The notes under the pieces were generated by a model. The model was not told the DNA's origin. It saw only the letters and a program-made list of their open reading frames with translations, and did no database searches. Below are positions 1,086 to 3,418 of a DNA stretch of 30,541 nucleotides, piece by piece (within the stretch, counting starts at the first letter, position 1; each line of letters begins with the position of its first letter). The translations under genes and the position numbers were made by a program. The stretch is from a virus: IMG/VR virus record IMGVR_UViG_3300044846_001269, positions 1 to 30,541 of that record. One strand, given 5' to 3'.

Positions 1086-1116
1086 GGGTGCGTCACGTAA
1101 ACAACGCACATCACCC
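1086..1116 (+). other. Hairpin upstream of tRNA-like element
   Basis: Bases 1088-1093 (GTGCGT) pair perfectly with 1104-1109 (ACGCAC) around a 10-base loop. GGG at 1085-1087 could add pairs with CCC at 1114-1116. The same CCC forms one side of the acceptor-like stem of the element that follows, so the two folds would be mutually exclusive. No T-run follows, so this is not an intrinsic terminator. Confidence 0.5.
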
Positions 1117-1183
1117 TCCGCTGGAGCTTCACACCTTCCTCCTTTGTGTGTGCAACAGAGTTCGATTCTCTGTCGAGGGACCA
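1114..1183 (+). ncRNA. tRNA-like element without D arm, anti-Shine-Dalgarno loop
   Basis: The gap 1071-1222 holds no gene but can fold like a tRNA 3' part. The acceptor-like stem is CCCTC (1114-1118) with GAGGG (1175-1179). The anticodon-position stem is CACAC (1130-1134) with GTGTG (1146-1150). A 5-base variable segment TGCAA follows. The T stem is CAGAG (1156-1160) with CTCTG (1168-1172) around a canonical TTCGATT loop, then discriminator A1180 and CCA (1181-1183). Only about 11 bases replace the D arm, and the anticodon-position loop has 11 bases instead of 7. So it is not a normal tRNA. The loop contains TCCTCCTT (1137-1144), complementary to the Shine-Dalgarno at 1209-1216. Alternatives are a decayed tRNA or the tRNA-identity part of an attachment site. 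Confidence 0.5.
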
Positions 1184-1222: not shown

Positions 1223-3418
1223 TTGAAGACAGGTGATTTCTTCGATGCGATATATGGTAGTGCAACTGGTCTTGCTACTATCGTCACTAGGCATCCAGTA
1301 AGCGGTGAGCTTACCGACCAGAAGTTCTTTGAATACCCAGAGCAAAAAGAGCAGATGGTTATTCACGCAAGCAACAATGCCAACAGTGATGTTTACTTCT
1401 CGCCAATTTTGTTTGGCTCACCGAGAAGAATAAAAGAAAACGCTAAAGTTGTGTCTGTAGTTTACGCAGATGCTGACACCTGCGCCCCAGAAAACTTTTT
1501 GGTTGAACCATCTATCTCTGTGCAAACAAGCGAGGGTCGCTGGCACACTTACTGGATTCTTGACGAGGCACAAGACCCACAGGACGTAGCATTAATAGCT
1601 AAGAAGATTGCCTATGCTCACTCTCATCAGGGTTGTGATAGGTCTGGTTGGAACAGCACTAAGTTGCTAAGAGTGCCTAACAGCATGAACCGAAAAGAGG
1701 GCAAGGACTATCCAGTAACAGCTACCTGTACTGGTGTTATCTACAGCCTGTCTGAAATCAATGACCACTATGGAGATGTAGATGTTGAGCCAATCAAAGA
1801 CCTATCGCTAAAAGAACTACCTGCACAGTGGCCTGACCTTATGGCAACTATGGCAAAGATACAAAGCAACCCAGAAATTATTGGGCTTTACATGGAGCAA
1901 CCGCCAGCTAATGCTGATATGTCTAGGCTTCTTTGGAAACTTGAGCTTGAGCTATTTAGGCAGGGACTGACACAAGAAGAAGTGTTTGTTGTTGCTAGAA
2001 ACGCAAAGTGCAACAAGTATCACTCCCCACTAAGACCCAAGCGTGGAGATGCAGACGGAGACCTGTGGCGTGAAGTTCAACGTGCTGGCTCCTCACACCA
2101 GCAAGGTGCTGTCGAAGAGTACCAGCCAGTTGAGCCGTTGGTTGAGGCTGTTGCAGTAGTTAAAGAGGATGCAAAGTTTCTAACTGATGACGAGCGGTAT
2201 ATCGTGGATACTCGTAGGACCTTTATTGATGACTACTTAGACTGGGCTAGGTCTAAAACCGATGCCGCATATCAGTACCACATTGCGAGCGCATTTACTG
2301 TGCTGTCATCGGCTTTCTCTGACATTGGCTATGCTATCCCAAAGTACGGCAAGATGGGCTTGAACCTGTGGTTTATGGTCCTTGGTGAGACTACCCTAAC
2401 TCGTAAGTCCACAAGTCGTAATCTAATGCTTAGAATGATTCGTGAGTTTGAAAAATACTCTGGCTACCAGATTGACATTGGTTCTGATGCAACACCAGAA
2501 GGTGTGACTTCAATTCTTGCTGAGCGTGATGGTAAAACTAGCCTTCTGCACAGAGATGAAGTACAGGGTATGTTCAAGGACTTTATCAATAAGACTTACA
2601 TGGCATCCGCTGCAGAACGATTTACCGAGCTTTACGATGGACACGTTCCAGTTGTGATTCGGTCTGGTAAGGGCAAGTCTCAGACTGAAAGAGCAACCAC
2701 TAACTTTGTGATGTTCTTGATGGGTATCACAAGCAAGGTTGCAGATGTTTTGACAACTGAGTATTTCCGCTCAGGATTCTTGGCACGATTTATTTACGTT
2801 ACTGCTGAGACACCAGACAGAAGTAAAGAGCTTGAGGATATCCAGCAAGCTGATGAGTATGAGGTTATCGTTAAAGATAACGTGATGGACAACCTTGTGA
2901 AGGGAATCTACAATGCTGTGGTATTCTGGCAGAAGAAGGGCGAGCCAAGCCCAAGACCAATTAGATTGACTGAACCAGCCCTAGAGCGATTTAATCAGTT
3001 TAAATGGGAGATGGGCAACTGGGCAGACAACCACACAGAGCGTGACTCTATTGAGCCATCACGCCAGCGACTTGCTTTATCGGTTTGGAAATGTGCAATT
3101 CTTTTGGCGATGCACGAACAGAAGGAACAGGTTGAGCTACGTCATATGCTAACCGCTATTTACTACTCACAGGATTGGTTTAAGAACCTAATCAAGATGG
3201 CTAGTGCCATCTCTGCTTCTGAGTGGCAAAGAGATGTTGATAAGCTGGAGGCTCTGGTAATTGACAGAGGTGGCAAGATTCGCTATGAAGAAGCTTACCG
3301 AAAGTTTAGCAACAAGCGTAAGCGTGAGTTCGATGAGATGGTTCAGGCACTTCATTCTCAGGCTAGAGTTCAGATTGCTGTTGATAACCGCAAGAGTTAC
3401 CTAGAGGTGATTGCGTAA
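1223..3418 (+). CDS. Primase-helicase: RepB-type AEP primase plus DUF3987-like ATPase
   Basis: A 731-residue replication protein expected to prime and unwind DNA at the fork. The N-terminal half reads as an archaeo-eukaryotic (RepB-type) primase: VVYADAD gives D83 and D85 as metal ligands, GRWHTYW gives H108, and RSGWNSTKLLRVPNSMNRK (about 140-158) forms the last motif. The C-terminal half is a helicase-like ATPase: GETTLTRKST (388-397) stands at the P-loop, with Arg in place of the usual Gly before Lys, as in some DUF3987-like proteins. D445-E446 in HRDEVQG gives Walker B. Start is TTG at 1223, chosen for its strong Shine-Dalgarno. The stop overlaps the next ATG (TAATG). The primase half is more certain than the ATPase subfamily. 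Confidence 0.78.
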   Translation: MKTGDFFDAIYGSATGLATIVTRHPVSGELTDQKFFEYPEQKEQMVIHASNNANSDVYFSPILFGSPRRIKENAKVVSVVYADADTCAPENFLVEPSISVQTSEGRWHTYWILDEAQDPQDVALIAKKIAYAHSHQGCDRSGWNSTKLLRVPNSMNRKEGKDYPVTATCTGVIYSLSEINDHYGDVDVEPIKDLSLKELPAQWPDLMATMAKIQSNPEIIGLYMEQPPANADMSRLLWKLELELFRQGLTQEEVFVVARNAKCNKYHSPLRPKRGDADGDLWREVQRAGSSHQQGAVEEYQPVEPLVEAVAVVKEDAKFLTDDERYIVDTRRTFIDDYLDWARSKTDAAYQYHIASAFTVLSSAFSDIGYAIPKYGKMGLNLWFMVLGETTLTRKSTSRNLMLRMIREFEKYSGYQIDIGSDATPEGVTSILAERDGKTSLLHRDEVQGMFKDFINKTYMASAAERFTELYDGHVPVVIRSGKGKSQTERATTNFVMFLMGITSKVADVLTTEYFRSGFLARFIYVTAETPDRSKELEDIQQADEYEVIVKDNVMDNLVKGIYNAVVFWQKKGEPSPRPIRLTEPALERFNQFKWEMGNWADNHTERDSIEPSRQRLALSVWKCAILLAMHEQKEQVELRHMLTAIYYSQDWFKNLIKMASAISASEWQRDVDKLEALVIDRGGKIRYEEAYRKFSNKRKREFDEMVQALHSQARVQIAVDNRKSYLEVIA

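Follow-up and report, generated by a model that had tools for sequence, protein, structure and literature searches.

A conserved tRNA-like RNA with a 5' pseudoknot, upstream of a phage primase gene, that appears to be a hitherto unreported RNA switch or antisense regulator

The window, namely the whole stretch of DNA analysed here, is a viral record of 30.5 kb (IMG/VR record IMGVR_UViG_3300044846_001269; 30,541 nucleotides). A Sak4-like ATPase gene (10-594) is followed by an ssb-like gene for a single-strand DNA-binding-like protein (DUF669; 594-1070, + strand; PHROG and Pfam matches) and by a DNA primase-helicase gene with a TTG start (1223-3418, + strand; phrog_10514 DNA primase, E 8e-168; Pfam DUF3987), which is the gene predicted to be regulated. 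The gap of 152 bases between the ssb and primase genes contains, in order, an AAUGGGC box, a pseudoknot, a tRNA-like structure and the primase ribosome-binding site. The corresponding element of relatives also begins shortly 3' of the ssb stop codon. The sole result of a Megablast comparison of the window with phages was a short match to a polymerase gene in another part of the window. Because no relative of the primase was found among the 84,980 bacterial and archaeal genomes searched, the element-bearing records look like non-integrated phages.

The box, an H-type pseudoknot and the tRNA-like fold make up a single conserved element that spans positions 1073-1183 on the + strand. The box (1073-1079; AAYGGG in relatives) is near-invariant among relatives. 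Its pairing with the acceptor was considered and rejected because by-eye comparison shows that this pairing is not preserved, and AUGGGC was rejected as a start codon because relatives have AACGGGC and shifting frames. The pseudoknot (1081-1109) consists of stems S1 (1081-1085/1094-1098) and S2 (1088-1093/1104-1109), both of which covary, and its third loop (1099-1103) is A-rich. In the tRNA-like structure (1114-1183), the acceptor stem (1114-1118/1175-1179) has five good pairs, beyond which come a C.C mismatch and a G.U. The D stem is absent, and TGG is present at 1122-1124. Comparison with relatives L001 and L218 places the middle stem at 1130-1134/1148-1152, and this stem carries a pyrimidine-rich loop of 13 bases, CUUCCUCCUUUGU (1135-1147), in the anticodon position. 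The T arm (1156-1160/1168-1172) with its T loop TTCGATT (1161-1167) is followed by the discriminator A1180 and an encoded CCA (1181-1183). Within the pyrimidine-rich loop, TCCTCCTT (1137-1144) is complementary at every base to AAGGAGGA (1209-1216, + strand), which is the primase ribosome-binding site and the predicted partner of the loop.

An earlier note on this DNA had already described the position and sequence of the tRNA-like fold, its T loop, discriminator and encoded CCA, the missing D arm and the 8-base complement, and all of these agree with the sequence. It had also recognised three stems in tRNA order; the T arm and the covarying stems stand, but the acceptor is limited to five pairs and the register of the middle stem is shifted. 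The 11-base loop given there arises from a slipped register inside GTGTGTG. The fold does occupy 1114-1183, but the element starts further upstream, with the box and pseudoknot that had been overlooked.

A protein search with the primase yielded 74 viral loci, and nearly all of those with sufficient upstream sequence have the element downstream of ssb. Its pseudoknot occurs as a C-type (AGTC C TGAGACA T GACT TAAAAC TGTCTCA) and as a G-type (ACGTG GG GTGCGT CACGT AAACA ACGCAC), the latter being the form in the window, and concerted changes are seen in both pseudoknot stems across clades. In alignment A2, which comprises 15 C-type and related sequences from outside the window, double-sided changes are found in 21 of 30 pairs and 89.6% of cells pair, a level reached by none of 500 shuffles. 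In alignment A3, which comprises 17 G-type sequences with the window among them, pairing reaches 98.8% of cells, compared with 26-54% in a slid-partner control, and 14 of 20 pairs show double changes. Five acceptor pairs are conserved among 55 distinct elements, with position 6 paired in 58% and position 7 in 38%; the parser used for this count forces pairing on the other helices, and the covariation test consists of A2 and A3. The third acceptor pair is C-G in 49 of 50 elements and U-A in the remaining one. The T loop, the elbow GG and A73-C74 are kept among relatives, and a CUCC(U)UU core is found in the loop of nearly all of them; the encoded CCA is shared by few.

Single-sequence folding of the element region gives an ordinary energy (z about -1), and so the case for the structure rests on comparison. 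This ordinary energy, together with the encoded CCA and T loop of the window, would suit a decayed tRNA, a chance structure or an attachment site copied from a host tRNA. However, compensatory changes throughout dozens of loci already contradict such an origin, and there is no sign of integration, primase relatives being absent from the 84,980 genomes; we therefore consider it exceedingly improbable. At the level of sequence comparison, the analysis has shown that the structure is conserved and covaries, and that each phage has it at a single locus, 3' of ssb and 5' of the primase-helicase gene. We regard it as almost certain that the conserved element is real.

A covariance model, R1, was built from A2, with the window excluded. 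In the window, R1 matches 1070-1183 (66.7 bits, E 1.9e-14). Matches were obtained in 56 of the 66 sources searched, including the 15 training sources, namely in the window and in 55 more loci with relatives of its primase; the ten sources without a strong match are distant relatives. Each of fifteen large viral records has one strong copy. Scanning IMG/VR by the pseudoknot patterns alone and then by R1 retrieved 25 copies with E values of at most 3e-7; 23 of these lie on newly encountered contigs, and some are mutually identical. As a separate observation, G-type pseudoknots that lack the tRNA-like fold occur at L182:6608-6642 and L198:751-784, one of these contigs being 160 kb long; no Rfam match was found near the L198 pseudoknot.

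ARAGORN found nothing in the ssb-primase gap, and no family of Rfam 15 matches the element at the gathering score. A search at permissive thresholds, as the earlier note had advised, also left Rfam without a match to the element. The RNA family is absent from Rfam, and a search of the open literature found no report of the RNA. The element resembles phage tRNA genes (RF00005) in its T arm with a TTCRANY loop, its elbow GG and A73, and its position among tRNA genes in relatives. In contrast to them, it has five acceptor pairs instead of seven, no D stem, an extended loop with no defined anticodon instead of a D arm and a 7-base anticodon loop, and a pseudoknot directly 5'. Because it has no D stem, a five-pair acceptor and a 13-base loop and is unrecognised by ARAGORN and Rfam, the element is not a tRNA, whether intact or decayed. 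Its reading as a non-decoding tRNA-like RNA, put forward in the earlier note, is borne out, and covariation over dozens of phage loci excludes the decayed tRNA that had been weighed against it.

The element shares with the tRNA-like domain of tmRNA (RF00023) a D loop without a D stem, the elbow GG, a hairpin that replaces the anticodon arm, and an H-type pseudoknot. Unlike that domain, it has no G3:U70 and no tag reading frame, its hairpin being too short for a tag; its pseudoknot lies outside and 5' of the fold, and its acceptor has five pairs. Because G3:U70, a tag and an Rfam match are all lacking, the element is not a tmRNA. A domain-only form of tmRNA is known in mycobacteriophage DS6A, and a similar molecule has been reported to inhibit tmRNA (PMC4131195, PMC11915505). 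RNAs of this kind, in which the tag and pseudoknot region is missing, are also present in L078 (53.2 bits against an Rfam tmRNA gathering score of 47) and L218 (37.1 bits, E 1.6e-13), and the five such RNAs seen all appear by eye to retain G3:U70.

Much of the match between loops and primase leaders is expected because the loops are pyrimidine-rich and the leaders purine-rich. The 8-base match of the window had been taken as an argument against tRNA decay; it is indeed exact, but in the window alone it is marginal, since shuffled loops equal it with p 0.053. In 43 representative loci, the longest complementary run that a loop shares with the leader of its own primase gene has a mean length of 7.74 nt, compared with 6.76 nt for swapped leaders (z 5.9, p 5e-5). 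The duplex energy also differs between own and swapped leaders (p 0.0008), although less significantly than the match length. Because shared lineage could mimic a coupling of loop and leader, leader swaps were confined to lineages of similar primase. Such swaps gave p 0.0013 with five lineages, p 0.004 with six lineages and p 0.02-0.036 with eight to twelve clusters. The same swap test revealed no effect for the ssb leader (p 0.5). The leader of the Sak4-like gene has matches in some phages and is significant overall; the overall fit disappears within lineages (p 0.09), and so this leader was rejected as a second target.

The cases that seem most persuasive for loop-leader pairing are matches outside the Shine-Dalgarno consensus. 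They are GGAGAAGAAG in L033 and L042, GGAGAAAAACG in L149, AAGGAGAAG in L133 (818 nt downstream), AAAGGAGAC in L152 (apart from the ribosome site, which is closer to the start codon), GAGAAAGGG in L030 and AAGAGGAG in L090. In L033, L042, L133, L149 and L152, the partner adjoins the ribosome site rather than being the site itself. The match is weak in L004, L089, L036 and L147, and the clade of L055-L057 and L086-L088 has kept the fold but lacks the match. Taken over the loci compared, the loop has been shown to covary with its own primase leader, at or just upstream of the ribosome site, the strength being moderate after lineage control. A functional pairing between the two is probable.

The loop core also bears on whether the element acts more generally. 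CUCCUUU is identical to the usual tail of 16S rRNA, and the element might be a 16S anti-Shine-Dalgarno mimic acting on many messages or a decoy for a protein that handles tRNA or tmRNA, such as SmpB. The elbow without a D stem, the separate tmRNA-domain-only RNA beside the element in some relatives, and the matches to the Sak4-like leader in some phages would fit. However, the element has no G3:U70 and no Rfam tmRNA match, and the flanks of the core track the primase leader in particular, which makes such a decoy or mimic improbable.

The element lies at most 60 nt from the primase gene in about half of the loci. At the other loci, a small hairpin, tRNA genes (Asn, Thr, Trp, Gln) or more tRNA-like RNAs intervene, and in many relatives the RNA and the primase gene are 100-800 nt apart, often with tRNA genes between them. 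The match is no weaker at a distance (z 3.9 in the 19 loci with a separation of at least 100 nt; z 2.3 in the 19 that are adjacent). At all 11 adjacent loci that were folded, the loop:leader fold excludes the tRNA-like fold, with the acceptor and middle stem opened. It lies 2.7-22.6 kcal/mol below the intact tRNA-like fold in nearest-neighbour energy, a measure that leaves out the tertiary contacts from which the tRNA-like fold would gain, and no other predicted fold of these loci lies more than 5 kcal/mol below it. Because loop pairing and the intact fold are mutually exclusive and the former is lower in energy, the element plausibly acts as a two-state switch at adjacent loci. In L033 and L042, the partner starts about six bases past the discriminator base, a tether that is presumably too short to let an intact L-shaped fold bring its loop to the leader.

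The earlier note had proposed a cis switch in which the loop hides the adjoining ribosome site until cleavage by tRNA enzymes exposes that site. The adjacency of RNA and gene in the window and in about half of the loci, the covariation of loop and leader, the competing fold predicted at 11 of 11 adjacent loci and the retention of the T loop, elbow GG and A73-C74 all agree with a switch. However, the strictly local form is too narrow because the match is at least as good across 100-800 nt and the partner is sometimes other than the ribosome site; moreover, conservation of the acceptor extends to only five pairs, and we regard this form as unlikely. At non-adjacent loci, any such action must be long-range or in trans. 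With regard to the covariation in related phages that the earlier note had suggested as a check, the stems covary strongly, as does the pseudoknot, and the loop/leader pair covaries too.

The most likely role for the element would be regulation of primase translation through long-range or trans base pairing. The loop would pair with the primase leader, this pairing would lower ribosome access to the primase message, and the RNA would thereby set the level or timing of primase. It could act over a long range in cis or, at loci with intervening tRNA genes, be released as a tRNA-shaped antisense molecule that works in trans; where it adjoins the gene, as in the window, competition between loop pairing and the intact fold would give a two-state switch. 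That loop pairing represses primase, whether in long-range cis or in trans, has about an even chance of being right. More tentatively, tRNA enzymes may mature the element out of the replication operon as a tRNA-shaped antisense RNA that owes its stability to the tRNA-like fold and acts in trans on the primase message through its re-purposed loop in the anticodon position. If so, it would give the phage feedback control of replication. Release by RNase P and RNase Z is uncertain because the conserved acceptor has five pairs.

Likenesses to known regulators can be found. One is the thrS leader of E. coli, a tRNA-like operator to which the synthetase binds because of its mimicry of anticodon arms. 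Both it and the phage element are tRNA-shaped mRNA elements upstream of a ribosome site, with control of translation in thrS; the proposed partner of the phage element is, in contrast, the message itself and not a synthetase. Trans-acting antisense small RNAs that mask ribosome sites likewise pair through a pyrimidine-rich loop at or just upstream of the Shine-Dalgarno site, whereas the phage element has a scaffold of tRNA-like fold and pseudoknot and is encoded in the operon of its target. As a tRNA scaffold that would serve to control replication genes by base pairing, the element is open to direct testing.

The pseudoknot may serve to protect the 3' end of the ssb mRNA, as a protein site or as a folding aid. 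The pseudoknot and tRNA-like fold might instead direct cutting between the ssb message and that of primase and protect the new ends, with the loop match being incidental. The same slot often also houses tRNA genes, and a pseudoknot of this kind is kept in Amigo and Molivia, two cultured Arthrobacter phages, in front of a gene deposited as tRNA-Gly, which replaces the fold. However, such a processing mark leaves unexplained both the weak acceptor stem and the covariation of the loop with the primase leader, the ssb leader showing none, and is quite unlikely. The deposited tRNA-Gly genes (L076:2075-2152 and L082:2100-2177) have an abnormal anticodon loop, are called tRNA-??? by ARAGORN and are probably not decoding tRNAs. 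On this point, the paper describing these phages says no more than that tRNA genes are present in the cluster (PMC5513430). The family is common to dozens of phage records, and its derived form in these phages is annotated as tRNA. This points to a regulatory instead of a decoding role for some 'undetermined' phage tRNAs.

Other apparently structured RNAs are seen around the same gap. L014 and L015 share GATGATTCTAGACAATCGC between the tRNA-like RNA and tRNA-Asn, within an apparent unannotated structured RNA, and other relatives have similar spacers with long hairpins. In Clavibacter phage CN1A (L079:2350-2510), a very small tRNA-like fold, GGGCA ... TGCCCACC, lies just upstream of primase and has a T arm and no anticodon arm.
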